Source: Candidatus Hebobacterum abditum (GTDB taxonomy: Bacteria; Armatimonadota; Hebobacteria; Hebobacterales; Hebobacteraceae). From it: a stretch of 48,652 nt of DNA. A model generated the notes under the pieces. That model was not told the DNA's origin. It did not search any database and was given only the letters and a program-made list of their open reading frames with translations. This document shows, piece by piece, positions 3,209 to 12,888 of the stretch (positions are counted from its first letter, which is position 1; the number at the start of each line of letters is the position of its first letter). Both the position numbers and the translations under genes were made by a program. Where the stretch lies: the NCBI GenBank assembly GCA_029821875.1, contig JALGXW010000028.1:1-48652 (forward strand), read 5' to 3'.

Positions 3209-3349
3209 TTACGCCGCCGCCTTCTTCACCGCCTGGATGTTCTCGTCTTTCTCCTGCCGCCCGTTGCTCCGGAAGCCGGCGAGCCCGAAGCCGTGCTTCT
3301 CGGCCATGACGGCCGTTCCTCTCACCTGCTCAGCGGTCGGATTGCGGCG
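3209..3349 (-). pseudogene. C-terminal fragment of a second acyl-ACP-reductase-like gene
   Basis: These bases align without gaps to about 4201-4341, the 3' end of the neighbouring reductase gene, at a constant offset of 992 bases. The frame is the same and carries no stop. The fragment encodes AEKHGFGLAGFRS where the full gene encodes AEKHGFKLAGFRS, and it ends in KKAAA before TAA, two codons earlier than the full copy. It begins directly behind, and in frame with, the methyltransferase stop codon at 3362-3364. No start codon or ribosome site is needed to explain it, so I read it as the tail of a duplicated gene whose front was lost. Confidence 0.8.
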
Positions 3350-4194: not shown

Positions 4195-5262
4195 CTAGCG
4201 TCGAGCTGCCGCCTTCCTCACCCCCTCGATGTACTCGTCCGTCACCTGTCTCTCGAAGCTCCGGAAGCCGGCAAGCTTGAAGCCGTGCTTCTCGGCCAGG
4301 GCAGCCATTTCTCTCACTCGGTCGATGCTGAGATCGCGGCCGAGGGAATAGCTCTCGTACCGCTCCTCGAGCGCGAGGATCATCGTCTCGGCCATACACG
4401 CATACGCGGTCTTGGGGGGGAAGCCGAAGTTGAAGCGGAAGTCCACGTCCCCGGGCACCTCCACCGCGCCGCCTTCGATGACGAGCACATCCGGCCGCTG
4501 CTTGGCGACCTGCTTCGACACATCGCGTGGCCGGGCGACATCGCAGACAACTGCCCCCGGCTTAAGGGCCTCCCCCGGCACGACGGTGTCCACCGCGCTC
4601 GTGACCGTGATGACGATGTCGGCCTCCCGCAGGCCGGACTGGGGATCGGTCGTTGCACTGATCTCAGCCTTACCGTCCACGCTCGCTGCCACCTCGGACA
4701 AGCGCGCCTCGTCCCGGCCGATCAAGGTAACGGCCCCCGCCTCATCAGCCATGATGCGAACACACACCTGCCCAATCGACCCGGTCGCCCCCATCACTGC
4801 CACCTTCGCCTGCGACACATCAGTTCCCATCAACGCGGCCGCCTGCTTCGCCCCCTCGACGGCCGTCCAGACCGTGTAGCTGTTGCCGGTCGTGACAGCG
4901 ATATCGACGCTCTTGTCGACCGTAATCCCCGCGTCGCCCACGACGGAGGTCATCGCCCCGAGTCCCACCACCTTCGCGCCCAAGTCCTGCGCCACACGGG
5001 CCGCCCGGGTGATCTTCTGCAGTACGACCTCCGCGGGGAGGTCGAGGAACTGCCGCGGTGTGAGCGGGCATCCCACAAACCACCCACGCGCGTCGGCGCC
5101 GGTCTTGCTTCGCACCCCCGTGATCTTGGATACGGGCTTCGGGGACACCCGCTTGAGAAGCTGCTCCAGCACGACCTCGGGCAGGATGCCCAGAACGGGA
5201 TACTTCCTCGCCGCGTCCTTCGCACTACTCACGGGGTGGATTATGAAGGCGAACTCACCCAT
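4195..5262 (-). CDS. Long-chain acyl-ACP reductase-like oxidoreductase
   Basis: A 355-residue protein whose layout follows cyanobacterial acyl-ACP reductase (AAR), which turns acyl-ACP into fatty aldehyde using NADPH. Matching points are an N-terminal domain with the stretch VVGLGAMTSVV (about 98-108), the segment TTGNSYTVW (124-132), a Rossmann glycine motif GATGSIG (158-164), and a C-terminal AYACMAETM with Cys289 at the position of the AAR catalytic cysteine (FACFAEAM in Synechococcus, from memory). The following SLGRDLSID parallels the AAR ending. Databases often label such proteins shikimate/quinate dehydrogenase-like. Fold and cysteine are seen in the sequence; aldehyde formation is inference. 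The ribosome site before ATG 5260-5262 is weak. A methyltransferase and a fragment of a second copy follow. Confidence 0.75.
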   Translation of the reverse strand: MGEFAFIIHPVSSAKDAARKYPVLGILPEVVLEQLLKRVSPKPVSKITGVRSKTGADARGWFVGCPLTPRQFLDLPAEVVLQKITRAARVAQDLGAKVVGLGAMTSVVGDAGITVDKSVDIAVTTGNSYTVWTAVEGAKQAAALMGTDVSQAKVAVMGATGSIGQVCVRIMADEAGAVTLIGRDEARLSEVAASVDGKAEISATTDPQSGLREADIVITVTSAVDTVVPGEALKPGAVVCDVARPRDVSKQVAKQRPDVLVIEGGAVEVPGDVDFRFNFGFPPKTAYACMAETMILALEERYESYSLGRDLSIDRVREMAALAEKHGFKLAGFRSFERQVTDEYIEGVRKAAARR

Positions 5263-5328: not shown

Positions 5329-6462
5329 CTACCTCCCAAACAGTTCTGCCGCCCGGCTCATGCGCGGGATCACGTCGACCCCGAACGGACACCGCTCGGC
5401 GCAGGACCCGCACTCGGTGCACTCCGAGGCCTGTGCCGGCAGCGCCGCGTAAGCGGCGCGGAGATCGTCAGACATGCCCTGGTCCGCGATGGCGGCGAGC
5501 CGGAGAGCCTGGCCCACGTCGATTCCGACAGGACACGGAAGGCAGTGATTGCAGTACACGCAGCCGCCTTCGAGACGCCAGGCCGAACCGGCCAGCGCCT
5601 CGCCGAACTCCCTCTCTTCGCCGCTGGCGGAGAGGAAGGCGAGCACTGAGTCGAGCTCCCCCCGGTTCTTCACTCCTGGCACGACCGCAGAGACACCGGC
5701 CTGCGACAGAGCATAGCTCAACAGTCTGACCGGATTCAGGTCGCCCTTTTCGGACTCCGCGAGATGGAAGAGGCGCCCGCCCGCAAAGGGCTTCATGCCG
5801 ACGAGCCCGATGCCCTCCGCGGCGCAGGTCTGGAAGAGCCGCCTCCTCTCGACGTTGACTCCGCGCGGCCGCGCTCCGGCCTCCGCTTCGAGCTCCTCAA
5901 TATGGGAACGGCCAGGCAGCGCGTCGAACACGGGGTTGATCGGGAACATCAGGACATCGAAGTCTCCGCTCAGCACGGCCGCCTGCGCGACCGGCGCAAC
6001 GTGGGAGCTCAGCCCGATGAAGCGTGCCTTGCCTTGATCGCGGAGACTGCGGGCCAGAGCCAGCAGGCCGGCCTCGTCGGCCAGGCCCGTGTAGTCATCT
6101 TCCTTGTCCACCCACTGCACCATGAGGACGTCGGCATGATCGATGCCCAGCCGCGAGAGCATGTCTGCGAAGATGGCCTCGCACTCACTCGCGTCACGCG
6201 AGAGGCGGTACTGGCCATTCGATACAGCGGGGCCCAGGTGGAGCGTGAGAGTCACACGGTCTCGCAGCCCGGCCAGGGCCGCGCCCAGGTTGTCGAGGTA
6301 GTCGGGGTAGGCCCAGAGGATGTCGAAGTAGGTGACGCCGCCCTCCACCGCGCCGCGCACGACTTCGACCACCGTCTCCCGCGGCTGTCCGTGGAGGTAC
6401 TCGGTTCCGATGCCGATCTCGGCAACGGCGAGCCCCGTCCGCCCGAGCTTCCTTCGGTTCAT
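5329..6462 (-). CDS. Aldo/keto reductase fused to 4Fe-4S dicluster domain, altered active site
   Basis: A 377-residue protein with an AKR barrel (about 1-290) followed by two ferredoxin-type cysteine clusters: C301/C304/C307/C310 and C348/C351/C354/C358, the last ending CAERCP. Of the AKR tetrad, the Asp (D47, in YFDILWAYP) and Tyr (Y52) are present. The expected lysine position reads LHLG (about 73-78) and the expected histidine position reads VQWV (about 115-118), so Lys and His appear lost. The paralogue at 28781-29890 keeps all four. This copy may have a changed chemistry or mainly an electron-transfer role. The start is ATG 6460-6462 with a weak ribosome site. A 12-base palindrome lies just upstream. 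Confidence 0.88.
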   Translation of the reverse strand: MNRRKLGRTGLAVAEIGIGTEYLHGQPRETVVEVVRGAVEGGVTYFDILWAYPDYLDNLGAALAGLRDRVTLTLHLGPAVSNGQYRLSRDASECEAIFADMLSRLGIDHADVLMVQWVDKEDDYTGLADEAGLLALARSLRDQGKARFIGLSSHVAPVAQAAVLSGDFDVLMFPINPVFDALPGRSHIEELEAEAGARPRGVNVERRRLFQTCAAEGIGLVGMKPFAGGRLFHLAESEKGDLNPVRLLSYALSQAGVSAVVPGVKNRGELDSVLAFLSASGEEREFGEALAGSAWRLEGGCVYCNHCLPCPVGIDVGQALRLAAIADQGMSDDLRAAYAALPAQASECTECGSCAERCPFGVDVIPRMSRAAELFGR

Positions 6463-6474
6463 GTCCCCAACTCA

Positions 6475-6486
6475 ACTCGATCGAGT
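6475..6486. promoter_or_regulatory. 12-bp palindrome upstream of the AKR gene
   Basis: ACTCGATCGAGT is a perfect inverted repeat ending 13 bases before the AKR start codon on the minus strand. It could be an operator or a chance palindrome. No promoter elements can be placed around it with confidence. Confidence 0.2.
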
Positions 6487-6631
6487 AGACTCGCCTCTGA
6501 CAGGCAGGGCATGTCTGTGCCAGAGAGCGTCTCAGTCATTGCCACGAGCGGACCGCGCCTCATCGGCGGCAGGGGATCCCGCTCTCACCGCAACTCGGCG
6601 ATCTCGCAGTCCCTTGTCCCCGCGCCGGCTG

Positions 6632-6901
6632 CTACCTGCCTTCCCAGTGGGCTTCGCCCTCCTCCTCCATCTTCTCGAGCCGGGTGTAGTAATCCGGAAA
6701 CTCGTTGAGGTGGGCGAGGGCGATCTTGCCGGTCGTCAATGGATCGTCGTTGCTGACGTTCGTGTGCGGGTCAACCAGTCCGTGCTCGAGTTCGACATCC
6801 ATACCCATGCGGAACTGCTCGACATCGAACTTGCTCCAGTCGATGCCCAACTGCTCGCCAATCTGCTTCGCCTCTTCGGCCGTGAAGCTCTTCTTCGCCA
6901 T
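6632..6901 (-). CDS. DUF5661 family protein
   Basis: An 89-residue soluble protein beginning MAKKSFTAEEAKQIGEQLGI, with an excellent GGGGAGGAAG ribosome site before ATG 6899-6901. The motifs WSKFDVEQFRMGMDVELEHG and KIALAHLNEFPDYYTRL are the conserved core of the DUF5661 family as I remember it. These small proteins occur singly or fused in many bacteria and no biochemical role is known to me. The protein is acidic (ends EKMEEEGEAHWEGR), without membrane segments or cysteines. It stands alone between the AKR and URO-D genes with gaps of 127-169 bases, so it is probably its own unit. Confidence 0.85.
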   Translation of the reverse strand: MAKKSFTAEEAKQIGEQLGIDWSKFDVEQFRMGMDVELEHGLVDPHTNVSNDDPLTTGKIALAHLNEFPDYYTRLEKMEEEGEAHWEGR

Positions 6902-7029
6902 GGTGCTTCCTCCCCGAGTTGGCTTTGCTCGGTTCCTGAGGTAGTCTTCGGCAGAGAACTGAACGTTCCCTGCGCTGGAAGCGAGGAGCGCGTGGCCTCG
7001 GAGGCACTATGCAGGCCCGCAGGCCGCGC

Positions 7030-8121
7030 CTAGTCCGCCTTCCCGACGAGCTCCTTCCAGCGCCACACCATATACTGGTAGCTCTCCCAGGAGACGTCCG
7101 GCGGGATGCCGTGGTCCATGTGGGGGATGAAGCGGCCGAGGGCCAGGATCGGCCTCAGGCGTTCGATCTCCGCCTCCATCGCGGCCCTGTCTTTCGTCAT
7201 GGCTCGCTTGTCGATGTGGCCGAGCGCGTGCAGGTCCGGGTGAGTCTTCAGCAGGTACGGCACGTCGTTTCCGGCCTGCACCTCGTAGGGGAAGATGCCG
7301 TTGAGTCCCGCTTCGAGGAAGAGCGGGGTGAGCTGGTGCATGTGGCCGTCGCTGTCGACAAGCTTGATCGTCGCGCCCCGCTCGTCGGCGAGGCCCATGA
7401 GCTTCTGGTAGTAAGGCATCAGGAAACGCCTGAACATCGCGGGTGAGATGAGAGAGCCGTTCTTGCTCGCCATATCCTCCCAGGTGTAGATCGCGTCGAT
7501 CCTGATCTCGTCGAACAGTTGGGTGAGCAGCGCAGACCAGAGGTCACAGAGCGCGGTGTTGATGTCCTCGATCAGCTCCGGCTCCTGCGCCATGGCGATG
7601 AGGCACGCTTCCACGCCCATCATTGTGCGCGGACCGCTCAGAAAGCCATATGGGTAGAAGCCCACGCCTATCAGCCCCTCGGAATCCCGGAGTTCCCCGA
7701 CCCGCTTGTCCCAGTCCGCCGGGAATCGCTCAGGTGTGTCAGGGCTGAAGCGCCACTTGTGCTCCTCCCACGTCTTGCGGTCCTTGACGGGGTAGTCGAG
7801 CCACTCCGACATGCTGGTGCCGTCCTTGCGGGCCCGTTGGAGGACGCCCTGCTCGTCTCGGAAGACGATGTGCTCCTCGTCCTCGTCGAGCTGCTCCCGC
7901 TCGAAGCCCGGGCAGAGCCCGAAGTTCACCCCCGGGCCCGCCCCGCCGGAGTCGAAGCCGAACAGGGCGTACCAGTCGTCGTCGTTCTTCATCCCCTCCC
8001 GCTTCCACCGCCGGTGCGTCTCCTCCCACGGCCCCCACTGGCAGACGAAGGGAACGCGGTCCACTGGCTCGCCGGTGAAGAACGCTATCATCCGCTCGCG
8101 GTGCGTCATCGAATCAGACAT
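7030..8121 (-). CDS. Uroporphyrinogen decarboxylase (URO-D) superfamily protein
   Basis: A 363-residue TIM-barrel protein of the URO-D/cobalamin-methyltransferase superfamily. I start it at ATG 8119-8121 (MSDSMTHRERMIAFFTGEPVDRVP), the classic N-terminal pattern of the family; the frame is open a little further upstream. Further family marks are SGPRTMMGVEACL, YTWEDMASKNG and KLVDSDGHMHQL. Members of this branch are rarely true heme enzymes. In saccharolytic Planctomycetes, Armatimonadota and relatives many copies sit beside sugar genes with unknown roles. No other heme gene is near; the next gene downstream in the direction of transcription is DUF5661 and the next upstream is a GH2 glycosidase. 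A second paralogue lies at 16172-17242. Confidence 0.88.
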   Translation of the reverse strand: MSDSMTHRERMIAFFTGEPVDRVPFVCQWGPWEETHRRWKREGMKNDDDWYALFGFDSGGAGPGVNFGLCPGFEREQLDEDEEHIVFRDEQGVLQRARKDGTSMSEWLDYPVKDRKTWEEHKWRFSPDTPERFPADWDKRVGELRDSEGLIGVGFYPYGFLSGPRTMMGVEACLIAMAQEPELIEDINTALCDLWSALLTQLFDEIRIDAIYTWEDMASKNGSLISPAMFRRFLMPYYQKLMGLADERGATIKLVDSDGHMHQLTPLFLEAGLNGIFPYEVQAGNDVPYLLKTHPDLHALGHIDKRAMTKDRAAMEAEIERLRPILALGRFIPHMDHGIPPDVSWESYQYMVWRWKELVGKAD

Positions 8122-8217
8122 TACGCGCACCCCATCTCTTGCCCTCATTCCCCGTGGGCACTGGGCTTGTCGCGACCACGAACGCGCCGAAGCCTGGCGC
8201 TGTCAAGGCGCCCAGCG

Positions 8218-9945
8218 CTACCGGCCCTCCACCGCGGCCTCCTGCTCGTTGATGGCGCGGATGACGGCCGGGTCGAACTTCGGCTTGCGGTCATAGCTGT
8301 AAAGCCCGTTGACCTCTTGCTCGATGTCGTAGAGCTGCGTATAGCAGAACCCGCATATCTTCGGGTGGAGGAGGATCGCTTCCGTCAGGGCGCGGTAGCG
8401 GGCCAGGAACTCCTCCTCGGTCTTCGGCCGGTCGCCGTACCCCCAGGCCTTGTCATCCGTCTGTCCGGGGTTCCACCAGACGCCACCATACTCGCTCACG
8501 AAGTAGGGCTGGCCCCGGTGCGGTGCGTCGAATGCCGAGTTCCGGAATGGCTCGCCGTCCCCGGCGAAGGCGGCGAAGAGGGCGGCAAACTTCTCCGGGT
8601 CCTGCTCGTAGCTGTGGCAGTCGTCGACATCGGTGACCGCGTGGACATAGCCGCTGGTGTCGATGACCGGCCGCGTCGGGTCGAGCTGCTTCGTCGCCCA
8701 GTAGACGGCGGGCACAAGCGCCGGAGTAGGCTCGTGCCGGGTCTCGTTGAGTGGGCCCCAGCCCACCACCGATGGGTGGTTGAAGTCCCTCTGTACCACG
8801 GCGAGCCACTCCGGTAGGATGCTCGCCAGCGCGTCGGGCAGCGAGATGTCGAGGCCCCAGCTCGGGTATTCACCCCACACGAGATAGCCGAGGCGGTCGG
8901 CCCAGTAGAGGAAGCGCGGCTCGAACACCTTCTGATGGAGGCGGGCCCCGTTGAACCCCATCGCCTGGGAGAGGTCGATGTCGCGCCGCAGCGCGTCGTC
9001 GTCGGGCGCGGTGTAGATGCCATCGGGGTAGTAGCCCTGGTCGAGCACGAGCCGCTGAAAGAGGGGCCGGCCGTTGAGGAGGATCGCCGGTGACTCGAGG
9101 TCGATCTGCCGCATTCCGAAGTAGCTCTCGACGCGATCGACGAGGCTGTCGCCCGCCGTCAGGTGCAGCTCCAGGTCGTACAAGAAGGGATCATCCGGCG
9201 ACCACGCCCGCGCCTCACCCAGGTCGAGATCGAGCGCGGCCGCCCCGCCCTGCACGTCGGCCCCCACCTTGGCCACCTCCGCGCCCTCCGCGCGGGCGAC
9301 CGCGATCACGACGTGATCGGAGGCAGCGTCTGTCGTCTGAACCACGACCGAGAGGCGGCTACGCTGGACGTCGGGCAGGAACCGGGCGCGCTCCAGTCGG
9401 ACGGCCGGCGCCGCCTCCAGCCACACCGTCTGCCAGATGCCGGTGGTGCGGGTGTAGAGGCAGCCATAGGACTCGGGCCTCTCGGACTGCTTCCCGGACG
9501 GCTGGAGAGCGCTGCCAGTGTCATCGATGGCCCGCACGACGAGTTCGTTGTCGCCGTCGCGCAGGTGAGGCGTGATGTCGAACTCGAACGGGGAGTAGCC
9601 GCCGCGATGGGAGCCACCTAGGCGGCCGTTCACCCAGACCGTTGTCTCGTAGTCGACGGCGCCGAAGTGCAGCACGCGGCGGCCCTGCCACTCATCGGGC
9701 GGGCGGAAGGTGCGCCGATACCACACCGCGGGCATGAATTCGGTCTTGCCGAGGCCGGAGAGCCGCGACTCCGGAGCGAATGGCACCACAATGCGGCCGC
9801 TCAGCGGATGGCCGCAACACAACCCGCGGTCGAGCCCGGAGAGGTCACGGTCCTCTTCGAACTCCCACTCCCCGTTGAGGCTCAGCCAGTCGGGGCGCAC
9901 CCACTGTGGGCGCGGGTATTCCGGTCGCGGCAAGTCTCTACTCAT
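8218..9945 (-). CDS. Glycoside hydrolase family 2 (beta-galactosidase/glucuronidase type)
   Basis: A 575-residue protein, start taken at ATG 9943-9945 (MSRDLPRPEYPRPQW) with GAGG about nine bases upstream. The N-terminal jelly-roll sugar-binding domain (about 15-180: LSLNGEWEF, PLSGRIVVPFAPES, WYRRTF, VNGRLGG.HRGGYSPFE) leads to an Ig-like domain and a TIM barrel. The barrel has the acid/base Glu in GPLNETRHEP (E401) and the nucleophile Glu in FVSEYGG (E485). There is no signal peptide, so it should act on imported oligosaccharides or glycosides in the cytoplasm. Sugar specificity cannot be read from sequence. Its start overlaps the preceding gene's stop by eight bases, placing it in the dus/coaX gene string. 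Confidence 0.93.
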   Translation of the reverse strand: MSRDLPRPEYPRPQWVRPDWLSLNGEWEFEEDRDLSGLDRGLCCGHPLSGRIVVPFAPESRLSGLGKTEFMPAVWYRRTFRPPDEWQGRRVLHFGAVDYETTVWVNGRLGGSHRGGYSPFEFDITPHLRDGDNELVVRAIDDTGSALQPSGKQSERPESYGCLYTRTTGIWQTVWLEAAPAVRLERARFLPDVQRSRLSVVVQTTDAASDHVVIAVARAEGAEVAKVGADVQGGAAALDLDLGEARAWSPDDPFLYDLELHLTAGDSLVDRVESYFGMRQIDLESPAILLNGRPLFQRLVLDQGYYPDGIYTAPDDDALRRDIDLSQAMGFNGARLHQKVFEPRFLYWADRLGYLVWGEYPSWGLDISLPDALASILPEWLAVVQRDFNHPSVVGWGPLNETRHEPTPALVPAVYWATKQLDPTRPVIDTSGYVHAVTDVDDCHSYEQDPEKFAALFAAFAGDGEPFRNSAFDAPHRGQPYFVSEYGGVWWNPGQTDDKAWGYGDRPKTEEEFLARYRALTEAILLHPKICGFCYTQLYDIEQEVNGLYSYDRKPKFDPAVIRAINEQEAAVEGR

Positions 9946-10855
9946 GTCTCTGGTCCTCAAACTCGATGACGCCTGGCCGCCAGTTCACTTGCTCCGCCAA
10001 GCGGAGATAGTCGTCGTCGGCGAGTTCCTCTGGTCTCTTACCCGAGAGCGCCACGAGCACGCCTTCCATGACGTTCGCGCCGAAGCTCTCGCCCGAGATC
10101 GAGGGCGTCATCGTGATGAGCTTTGCCACCCCTCGCTTGCGAAGCTCATCAACGTCGGTGGCGCGTGTCGTGTTCGTCACGATCACCTTGCCGGTCAGTT
10201 CGGCAGGCATATAGCGACGGATGAACTGGAAGTCGCCCGCGATGATATCGGCAGACTCGAAGTACCGCGCGTGCTTGGTTTTCGTCGCCTCTTGCCGGTC
10301 GCCCGTTGGATAGAGCACCGACATGGGCAGCCGCCGGAGGACCGGTAACAGCATGGCGCCTAGAATGGCAACCTGTCTCAAGCTGGTAAGTGCCACCGGA
10401 ATGCCAACCGCGTAGATGAGATCGCCGAAGGCGACCTCAGCCCCGAGCTGTGGGAAGGTCTCGGCCATTCCGGGGCGGTCCACGGCCGACACGAGCAGGA
10501 CCCGCTTGCCTGAAACCTCGAGCGCGCCCTCGTCGACCAGCCGCCTCAGCAGCAGCGGCTCCAGCACCCGCTTTACCCCGCCGCCGTCCACAACCGGTGT
10601 CTCTTTGGCAGCGCCGGCCATTCGCGCCGCGTCCCGCAGCTCGTATCTCCGGCTGCCGGCCACGAGGTACCGGTTGACCCCGCCGAGACCGATCGCATCG
10701 ACCTTGCCGTCGCGTTCGGCGATCGCCTCCTCTGCCAGGTGCACGTTGCCGTCCGTGCCGATTCGTTCAAGGCGGAACGGCTCGCCCGCGAAGTCCATGT
10801 GGACCGAGCGGTTCCGCCGCGACGACCCGAGGCTGACGCTGACCACATGCTTCAT
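9938..10855 (-). CDS. Quinate 5-dehydrogenase-like protein, function uncertain
   Basis: A 305-residue protein starting at ATG 10853-10855 (MKHVVSVSLGSSRRNRSV), overlapping the dus stop as ATGA. The pattern LERIGTDGNV, VDAIGLGGVNRYLVAG and TPVVDGGGVKRVLE matches a family that databases label quinate 5-dehydrogenase, found mainly in Firmicutes and other anaerobes. The label is not backed by biochemistry known to me. Later segments (LVSAVDRPGMAE, GDLIYAVGIP, SADIIAGDFQFIRRYMP, VITNTT-like VIVTNTTRATDVD) suggest a Rossmann-like fold. It is tightly packed between dus and a GH2 glycosidase, so co-expression with both is likely. Confidence 0.75.
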   Translation of the reverse strand: MKHVVSVSLGSSRRNRSVHMDFAGEPFRLERIGTDGNVHLAEEAIAERDGKVDAIGLGGVNRYLVAGSRRYELRDAARMAGAAKETPVVDGGGVKRVLEPLLLRRLVDEGALEVSGKRVLLVSAVDRPGMAETFPQLGAEVAFGDLIYAVGIPVALTSLRQVAILGAMLLPVLRRLPMSVLYPTGDRQEATKTKHARYFESADIIAGDFQFIRRYMPAELTGKVIVTNTTRATDVDELRKRGVAKLITMTPSISGESFGANVMEGVLVALSGKRPEELADDDYLRLAEQVNWRPGVIEFEDQRHE

Positions 10856-11838
10856 CCGGGCCTCGCAGCCGCGCTGAGAGCGGCCTCCCGCGCCTCTCCG
10901 AGAATGGCGAACAGGTGGGCTTCCGCAGTGGCGTGATTGGCCTTCTCCCGGAGCGAGCGCGCCATGGGCATCCCCTTCAGGTACCAAGACACGTGCTTGC
11001 GCATCTCCCTGACGCCCCACTTGGGCCCGCGATCTGCGACGGCCAGTGAGACGTGGCGGGCCGCCAACTCAATCCGCTCCTCCACAGTCGGCGGCGGTGG
11101 GGTCGGCTCTCCGGCGAGGGCCGCTCCCGCTTCGCGGAAGATCCAAGGGTACCCGAGTGCTGCCTGGCCGATCATCACACCATCACAGCCGGTCACTTCC
11201 CTCATCCGCACCGCGTCGCTCGCGGAATTGACATCACCGCTCCCGACCACGCGAATTGCGACGGCCTCTCTCACACATCGGATGACGTCCCAGTCGGCCG
11301 CGCCGCGGAAGCGCTGTCCCACCCACCGCGGGTGCACTGAGACGGCGGCCGCGCCGGCCCGCTCGCAGCGGCTCGCCATCTCGACTGCGTCCGCGCCGCG
11401 GTCTCCCCAGCCGGTTCGCAGCTTCACCACCACCGGCACGCTCGTCGCCTCAACGCAGGCGCGGACAATCGCTTCCCCGCGCTCCGGATCGGCCATCAGC
11501 GCGGCCCCGGCCCGGCCCTTCAGCACCTTCGGCACAGAGCAGCCCATGTTGATGTCCACAAGATCGGCTCCATGCCGCTCGGCCTCTACCGCAGCCTGGG
11601 CGACGACGTCGGGCTCGGCGCCGAAGATCTGCGCGCAGACCGGATGCTCCTCGGCAAGGAAGCGCAGCAGATCGTCCGTCTTCTGGCTGCGGTGGCGGAG
11701 AGCGTTCGCGCTGATCAGCCCTGTCCACACCGCGCTCGCACCGAGCTCACGGCAGAGAAGCCGGAACGGCCGGTCGTTGATCCCGGACATGGGAGCGAGT
11801 GCGACCGGCGGGTGTAGGGTCAGATCACCGATTCGCAT
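10852..11838 (-). CDS. dus: tRNA-dihydrouridine synthase
   Basis: A flavoenzyme that reduces uridine to dihydrouridine in tRNA D-loops. The 328-residue length is normal. I start it at ATG 11836-11838 (MRIGDLTLHPPVALAPMSG), since the longer open frame lies inside coaX. Family signatures are APMSGINDRPFR (15-26), DINMGCSVPKV with the catalytic Cys100, VVVKLRTGW, VSVHPRWVGQRFRG and VVGSGDVNSASDA (flavin phosphate-binding region). The C-terminal helical RNA-binding domain is present. It overlaps coaX by 14 bases and the quinate-dehydrogenase-like gene by four, indicating one polycistronic transcript. Confidence 0.96.
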   Translation of the reverse strand: MRIGDLTLHPPVALAPMSGINDRPFRLLCRELGASAVWTGLISANALRHRSQKTDDLLRFLAEEHPVCAQIFGAEPDVVAQAAVEAERHGADLVDINMGCSVPKVLKGRAGAALMADPERGEAIVRACVEATSVPVVVKLRTGWGDRGADAVEMASRCERAGAAAVSVHPRWVGQRFRGAADWDVIRCVREAVAIRVVGSGDVNSASDAVRMREVTGCDGVMIGQAALGYPWIFREAGAALAGEPTPPPPTVEERIELAARHVSLAVADRGPKWGVREMRKHVSWYLKGMPMARSLREKANHATAEAHLFAILGEAREAALSAAARPG

Positions 11839-12601
11839 CGGACCTGCCGCGGTTGTGCTCCCAGATGGCTGCGACTCCCTCGAGGGTGAGTGTCGGCACG
11901 ACCTCGTGCTGCACTCGTAGATACGACGATAGAAGCTCGGCGTCGCCGCCGGTGACCACCAGGGGAGTATTCGGCCCAATGGCCTCGCGTATGCGTGAGG
12001 CCAGGCCATCAATGAGCGAGGCCGTCCCGTAGGCCGCCCCGACGCGGATGCACGCTTCCGTGTCCGCGCCAATCGGCCCGGCGGGGAGATCACGGGAGGC
12101 CTTGGGCAGCGCAGCAGTGCGTTCCGCGAGGGCCTGGAAGCCGCTTGCCATTCCTACCCAGATGGCCCCGCCGAGGTATTCGCAGTCGGGCGACACGGCG
12201 TCGACGACGACCGTCGTTCCCACGCTCGCCACGATGACGGGAACACCGCACCGTCGCGCCGCCCCGACGGCCGCCGCAAGTCGATCCGGCCCGAGCCGAC
12301 GAGGAGTCCGGTAACGATTGACGAGTGGGCTCGGCATGTCGCCCCGCACGATGAACGCGGGCCGGCTCTCTCGCTCACACCACTGCACCCAGTCGCTCGC
12401 TGCCTCCGGAACGACAGAGCAGAGCGCGACCTCGAACTCCCCCTCCTCGCCTGCGTCGGCCGCTGCAGTGACCTGGGACGCGAGGTCGCCCGGCTTCGCC
12501 ACCCCGCTGGTCGGGCCGACCGACAGACCGCGGACCGCTCCCCCCTCCCATACTCCCACCTTCGTCGTCGTGTTCCCGATGTCGACGACGAGGAGCGTCA
12601 C
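11825..12601 (-). CDS. coaX: Type III pantothenate kinase
   Basis: Phosphorylates pantothenate in the first step of coenzyme A synthesis. A 258-residue protein with the ASKHA phosphate-1 motif VVDIGNTTTKVG at the N-terminus, the conserved LGPDRLAAAVGA segment, VVDAVSPDCEYLGGAIWVG (catalytic Asp region) and VVTGGDAELL. The start is GTG 12599-12601, overlapping the upstream stop as GTGA. No upstream frame gives a better N-terminus. It sits between a small membrane protein and dus in an overlapping run. A plausible promoter for the whole run lies at 12914-12942. Confidence 0.96.
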   Translation of the reverse strand: MTLLVVDIGNTTTKVGVWEGGAVRGLSVGPTSGVAKPGDLASQVTAAADAGEEGEFEVALCSVVPEAASDWVQWCERESRPAFIVRGDMPSPLVNRYRTPRRLGPDRLAAAVGAARRCGVPVIVASVGTTVVVDAVSPDCEYLGGAIWVGMASGFQALAERTAALPKASRDLPAGPIGADTEACIRVGAAYGTASLIDGLASRIREAIGPNTPLVVTGGDAELLSSYLRVQHEVVPTLTLEGVAAIWEHNRGRSDANR

Positions 12602-12888
12602 TCCGCTGCCTTTGTCCGAGCGGTGGCAAAGAGCTCGAGGCCCTTGGACGTGAAGAGCGAGCTGACATAGGCCATCACGAAGAGGAATCCTATCTGCACG
12701 CCCGCGGCCGCAAGCGGACGTGCGAGTCCCTCGCTGCCTTTGCGGCTCGTGCTGAGCAAGGCCTCGGGAACCTGGAAGAAGGCCGTCACCGCAAGCCCGA
12801 ATACCGCAACCATCATCGCGAGCCCCACCGCGAATATGATCCCGCCGACCCATCGCCCAGGTCTATGTTGAGCGCCAGATTCAGTCAT
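12598..12888 (-). CDS. Small two-TM membrane protein, unknown function
   Basis: A 96-residue protein with a strong GGAGGTAG ribosome site before ATG 12886-12888. Two hydrophobic segments (about 14-38 and 60-80) separated by a charged loop (STSRKGSEGLARP) predict a hairpin in the membrane. No cysteines or recognisable family motifs. It is the first gene of the coaX-dus run, sharing four bases with coaX, and is about 20 bases from the predicted transcription start. Confidence 0.75.
   Translation of the reverse strand: MTESGAQHRPGRWVGGIIFAVGLAMMVAVFGLAVTAFFQVPEALLSTSRKGSEGLARPLAAAGVQIGFLFVMAYVSSLFTSKGLELFATARTKAAE

Follow-up and report, generated by a model that had tools for sequence, protein, structure and literature searches.

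Cyanobacterial acyl-ACP reductase (AAR; TIGR04058; PDB 6JZQ/6JZU/6JZY) has been described in SeAAR to form a cysteine thioester and then, with NADPH, an aldehyde (PMC7089970). AAR-type reductase domains are also present in two enzymes of secondary metabolism: PigE (prodigiosin; NF053554), whose N-terminal thioester-reductase domain is proposed to reduce a thioester ahead of transamination (PMC8341465), and TamH of tambjamine YP1, which in vitro converts acyl-ACP to a C12 aldehyde and then to the C12 amine (PMC9594044). With these two enzymes, the framing of this aldehyde route as cyanobacterial only, adopted in a preliminary description of the DNA studied here, has become outdated. With regard to lipids, N-glyceroyl alkylamine phospholipids are known from Thermus, Deinococcus and Moorella, and no pathway has been assigned for the alkylamine lipids of Thermus. 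No report connecting AAR-type reductases with Deinococcus or with alkylamine lipids was found in the literature searched, most subscription journals lying outside it.

Here we analyze an AAR-like gene located in a stretch of 48,652 nucleotides of Candidatus Hebobacterum abditum, phylum Armatimonadota (assembly GCA_029821875.1, contig JALGXW010000028.1, positions 1 to 48,652; hereafter, the window). On balance, we lean towards its product being an NADPH-dependent acyl-ACP reductase that supplies a fatty aldehyde to a class III aminotransferase, yielding an alkylamine for membrane lipids, perhaps of the N-glyceroyl alkylamine type.

Identity and conservation of the AAR-like protein

The gene is on the minus strand, a detail that the preliminary description does not give; it and the residues of its product to which we refer are:

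4195..5262, minus strand: AAR-like gene, intact ORF of 355 aa, AAR-fold acyl-thioester reductase
AAR-like protein, residues: Cys289, nucleophile; GATGSIG loop, 158-164; NADPH-phosphate arginines, R183/R187/R309

A phmmer search returned two strong relatives of solved structure and no others, namely PigE (4ppm, E 4.7e-34) and cyanobacterial AAR (6jzq, E 3.1e-25, spanning residues 39-329). The same two families headed the NCBIfam results, both below their cut-offs: the PigE model NF053554 came first with 215 bits (cut-off 850) over residues 4-351, corresponding only to its reductase part, and the cyanobacterial AAR equivalog TIGR04058 second with 122.1 bits (cut-off 449.7). Judged by NCBIfam score, the predicted protein is nearer to the thioester-reductase domain of PigE than to AAR. 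An AlphaFold model based on 59 sequences (pLDDT 90.7) had the AAR crystal structures 6jzy/6jzq as its top full-length Foldseek matches (E 4.6e-24, 353 columns, TM 0.77-0.78), with the TAD domain from the carmabin pathway coming next. Alignment with SeAAR placed 158-GATGSIG-164 opposite 162-GATGDIG-168, Cys289 opposite Cys294, and R183/R187/R309 opposite R189/R193/R314. Cys289 is kept in all 51 Armatimonadota rows that cover the position and in 58 of the 59 aligned rows from several phyla, the lone exception (L161) belonging to a genome with an aminotransferase-reductase fusion. R183 is invariant (59/59), and the positions of R187 and R309 are mostly occupied by R or K. From the alignment to 6JZY, Cys289 would be positioned at the nicotinamide C4.

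Both the likeness to AAR over the whole length and the correspondence of glycine motif and cysteine claimed in the preliminary description are thus upheld, the former by sequence as well as by the structural comparison that had been suggested there as a check. The family tree proposed alongside it also agreed, since the AAR-like protein was not placed in any clade with a different proven reaction and grouped apart from the PigE clade; in the first AAR tree SeAAR and PigE were on very long branches, and their positions in it were not used. The central claim, that an AAR-type reductase possessing the catalytic cysteine exists beyond the cyanobacteria, in an Armatimonadota genome, stands. Judging from its sequence, the protein would be a real, well-conserved enzyme of this type, and apparently an active one. 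What separates it from cyanobacterial AAR, besides the sub-cut-off score, is an identity of 29% and the alteration of most of the SeAAR residues for binding of the aldehyde-deformylating oxygenase (ADO), with R73 replaced by P76, R79 by Q82 and Y247 by R244, and only K80 kept. These proteins are a new subfamily of a known kind of enzyme, in a pathway setting that has not been described.

Distribution in Armatimonadota and other phyla

The image of the gene as an isolated oddity was not borne out. AAR-like matches were found in 59 of 61 Armatimonadota genomes (42 of the 43 of high quality), usually as a single copy, although the match in one of the 59 (G006) is weak and to a dehydrogenase-like region. 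One scan of GTDB contigs, done with an alignment (A2) in which an outlying member was placed first and which reached other phyla, yielded at least 567 relatives in Bacillota, Chloroflexota, Actinobacteriota and others, with more than 500 in phyla other than Armatimonadota. The best 80 of these include Thermoanaerobacter, Moorella, Carboxydothermus, relatives of Desulfotomaculum, Tepidanaerobacter and Negativicutes, as well as Anaerolineae, Actinobacteria MAGs, Sumerlaeota and Armatimonadota. The gene belongs to the core gene set of Armatimonadota and is common in Clostridia.

The absence of a nearby ADO gene, already pointed out in the preliminary description, extends to the phylum: PF11266 was detected in none of the 61 Armatimonadota genomes and was positive in the S. 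elongatus control, and an alkane route via ADO was rejected for this reason. It is probable that AAR-type formation of fatty aldehydes occurs widely outside cyanobacteria and is linked with membrane lipids, not with alkanes.

Fusions with aminotransferase and acyltransferase domains

In 21 of 149 Bacillota genomes drawn around Moorella, the reductase domain was found as the C-terminal part of proteins of 866-1080 aa, with an insertion after approximately residue 185; the N-terminal part corresponded to Aminotran_3 in the three examples checked with Pfam. One further genome carries a fusion in the order of PigE. The aminotransferase-reductase (TA-TR) order of the 21 is that described for TamH, which differs in being NADH-specific, in its C12 chain length and in belonging to secondary metabolism. 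PigE, in spite of being the best NCBIfam match with the same proposed reductase chemistry, has the TR-TA order and is encoded in secondary-metabolite clusters, and in the tree the aminotransferase-reductase fusions fall inside the standalone group, apart from PigE. At one of these loci (L173) the gene order is HTH protein, partner and aminotransferase-reductase, so that the fusion adjoins the same partner genes as the standalone reductase (see below).

No standalone copy was seen in 16 of the 21 genomes with an aminotransferase-reductase fusion, and the copy present in the remaining five is damaged: four lack the cysteine (C289S in L161/G077, Trp in G091, G176 and G208) and one has a broken glycine loop (G224). 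Where a genome has no TA-AAR fusion, every standalone copy checked (ten of ten) is intact, including that of G195, which has the PigE-order fusion. Damaged copies in fusion genomes are to be expected if the fusion has taken over from the standalone enzyme, and this suggests that the product of the standalone enzyme also goes to transamination.

A different fusion, in which the reductase domain follows the glycerol-3-phosphate acyltransferase PlsY (PF02660/TIGR00023), was found in six Armatimonadota genomes and one Bacillota genome, the PlsY part being shown by Pfam (PF02660) for L032, L037 and L185. The fusion is the sole PlsY detected in each of the seven genomes, and points to a use of the reductase product in membrane lipids. 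In the genome of the window PlsY is separate from the reductase and present in two copies. Of the unstudied aldehyde, wax or ether-lipid route envisaged in the preliminary description, the use in lipids is supported by the PlsY fusion, and the aminotransferase fusions make an amine a more likely destination of the aldehyde than a wax or an ether lipid.

Elsewhere in the genome of the window a protein is encoded that matches the fused aminotransferase domain over nearly its full length (C64:186132-187262, minus strand, 42%), and the same is true of most relatives. In a set of Bacillota and other genomes, full-length matches to this domain were present in 20 of 24 AAR-positive versus 3 of 20 AAR-negative genomes (Fisher p 1e-5, which is optimistic given that the genomes sampled are not phylogenetically independent). 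The standalone aminotransferase scored best as a putrescine aminotransferase (485 bits, cut-off 612), with PigE second among distinct functions (410 bits), and in the genome of the window it may have another job. No conserved lipid cluster was seen around the candidate aminotransferase in the neighbourhoods of 27 genomes, and the aminotransferase tree gives no clear answer as to a sister relationship between the Armatimonadota copy and the fused domain.

A candidate route to alkylamine lipids

In the route that we favor, an acyl chain would be taken from its carrier (acyl-ACP or CoA) by Cys289 as a thioester, and a hydride from NADPH would release the fatty aldehyde from the acyl-enzyme. The class III aminotransferase, separate in the organism of the window and fused in many Bacillota, would then convert the aldehyde to a long-chain alkylamine, to be built into membrane lipids. 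The aldehyde-forming reductase step, as predicted from the comparisons above, is well supported, acyl-ACP being the presumable substrate in view of the homology with AAR and TamH. The amine branch is moderately supported, with the logic of the fusions indicating an amine as the next product. As end-product class, N-glyceroyl alkylamine phospho(glyco)lipids are the most likely, on the basis of co-distribution with no more than a handful of literature reports.

Among these, Moorella thermoacetica makes N-glyceroyl alkylamines (PMC13274423, Table 1) and carries the AAR-like cluster (L163). In a search of control genomes with TIGR04058, sub-cut-off matches were obtained in Thermus composti and Deinobacterium chartae, two members of Deinococcota, from which this lipid is known, together with the expected match in Synechococcus and one in the archaeon M. 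jannaschii; E. coli, B. subtilis and five other bacteria gave none. The coincidence of lipid and genes in Moorella and the matches in T. composti and D. chartae hint at a link of the system to N-glyceroyl alkylamine lipids. T. wiegelii (L096) has the genes as well, yet appears with iso-diabolic acid alone in the table of PMC13274423, in a column that is no test for alkylamines. A broader proposal, which we put forward tentatively, is that the reductase, its Q5DH-like partner (see below) and the class III aminotransferase might constitute the missing alkylamine route of N-glyceroyl alkylamine phospholipids, one that Armatimonadota would share with Deinococcota and many Clostridia, and that nearly all Armatimonadota might make such lipids. 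The AAR-like gene is a concrete candidate for the first committed step, and from its distribution alkylamine lipids would be expected throughout a phylum of which few members are in culture.

Gene neighbourhood and alternative functions

Over 80 loci, the conserved gene order is (birA, bioY) coaX - dusB - HTH protein - partner - AAR-like - greA - lysS, with names assigned from sequence and that of coaX by Pfam (Pan_kinase, homologue L064); in Armatimonadota the order is similar but lacks the HTH gene. The genes of the window next to the AAR-like gene are:

5329..9960, minus strand: genus-specific block separating AAR-like gene and partner, outside the conserved system, made up of the four genes that follow
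5329-6462, minus strand: aldo/keto reductase with a C-terminal 4Fe-4S dicluster domain
6632-6901, minus strand: DUF5661 protein
7030-8148, minus strand: URO-D family protein
8218-9960, minus strand: glycoside-hydrolase-like protein
9938..10855, minus strand: partner protein, 305 aa (Q5DH-like, a label only)
10852..12093, minus strand: dusB-like tRNA-dihydrouridine synthase, cluster member, named from sequence
11825..12853, minus strand: coaX, type III pantothenate kinase; start uncertain, the listed ORF overlapping dusB

Among the neighbourhoods fetched, the block is common only to a genome of the same genus (G001), and the gap between reductase and partner is 4.7 kb in both. The aldo/keto reductase could be the next enzyme if the aldehyde were destined for a fatty alcohol or for wax, ether or plasmalogen-type lipids: it is encoded 66 bp upstream of the AAR-like gene on the same strand and belongs to a reductase superfamily, and the PlsY fusion would fit any use in membrane lipids. 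However, in the neighbourhoods fetched it is a neighbour in this genus only, while the AAR-like reductase is a core gene of the phylum, and as a conserved partner it was rejected. The recurrent fusion partner, moreover, is an aminotransferase and no alcohol- or ether-forming enzyme, and bacterial plasmalogens and alkyl ethers arise by ester reduction (PlsA/Ger, PMC13274423), for which a free aldehyde is unneeded. An alcohol, wax or ether destination is thus unlikely in our opinion.

The Q5DH-like partner belongs to no Pfam or NCBIfam family, and searches for it returned no convincing solved relative by sequence and no plasmid matches. Its predicted fold (pLDDT 92.9) is of a two-domain Rossmann type, whose highest TM among solved structures is that of AAR (0.45-0.49), a distant likeness only. 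The motifs SxSxGSS, GGID, VDGxGxKxTLE and GDF are strongly conserved in the family. In 27 of 50 Armatimonadota genomes the AAR-like gene has the partner gene immediately upstream, 6-309 bp away, and in the cross-phylum set this arrangement holds for 42 of 75 loci; adjacent or not, the partner gene is present in 58 of 61 Armatimonadota genomes and in 18 of 20 genomes of the other loci. In Bacillota it was found in 15 of 16 AAR-positive versus 5 of 20 AAR-negative genomes (p 4e-5, uncorrected for relatedness). Neither this partner nor the cluster has been described for cyanobacterial AAR in the literature searched. The HTH protein (about 170-200 aa, N-terminal HTH; e.g. L110:1171-1782) is encoded upstream of the partner in Bacillota, at 39 of the 80 loci, and is a possible regulator of the cluster. 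The dusB-like gene is probably not part of the lipid function.

The constancy of the partner and the presence of the HTH protein at these loci would also fit a copy in the operon that acts chiefly as a structural or regulatory partner of both, sensing the state of acyl-ACP or NADPH, with catalysis being secondary. Also in line with such a role, Cys-less copies are kept in the canonical cluster of several Bacillota, and in three genomes (G086, G106 and G203) no other copy was found; these three suggest an extra, non-catalytic role, and the proposed alkylamine function does not explain them. Nevertheless, the catalytic residues are nearly invariant elsewhere and about half of the Cys-less copies seen co-exist with a fusion that supplies an intact active site, which makes a chiefly structural or regulatory role improbable. 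The diverged, Cys-less AAR-like proteins encoded in this cluster in some Bacillota (L175:2645-3757, L186:4964-6043, L187:2803-3816, L188:3307-4392, L189:5088-6149) may be pseudoenzymes that have acquired a separate role.

It is very hard to see in the AAR-like protein an enzyme for small polar substrates of the kind of shikimate/quinate dehydrogenase or glutamyl-tRNA reductase, because the matches in this direction (Shikimate_DH with 47.7 bits and OCD_Mu_crystall with 26.9 bits, the only ones above cut-off in Pfam, and weak hemA and aroE matches in NCBIfam, AroE model TIGR00507 giving 17.3 bits against a cut-off of 200.2 over residues 134-243 only) span just the nucleotide-binding domain, whereas those to AAR and PigE span most or all of the length including the acyl cysteine and the full-length fold is that of AAR; AroE and GluTR identities were rejected on these partial and low-scoring matches.

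In the genome of the window, a second Q5DH-like copy lies about 2.2 kb from a lipid-type cluster (L250:8695-18024; G000:C97, about 124.7-134 kb) with genes for an MGDG-synthase-like glycosyltransferase, the second PlsY, an NTP transferase, a radical SAM/SPASM protein, a CDP-alcohol phosphatidyltransferase and a phosphoesterase. Within the window, what is left of a second AAR-like copy was located beyond a methyltransferase gene:

3212..3349, minus strand: remnant of a second AAR-like copy, 46 residues with 57% identity to residues 308-353, stop at its end

A similar AAR-like remnant is present in another genome (G002, C1:482495-482635), where a homologue of this methyltransferase is again encoded nearby.
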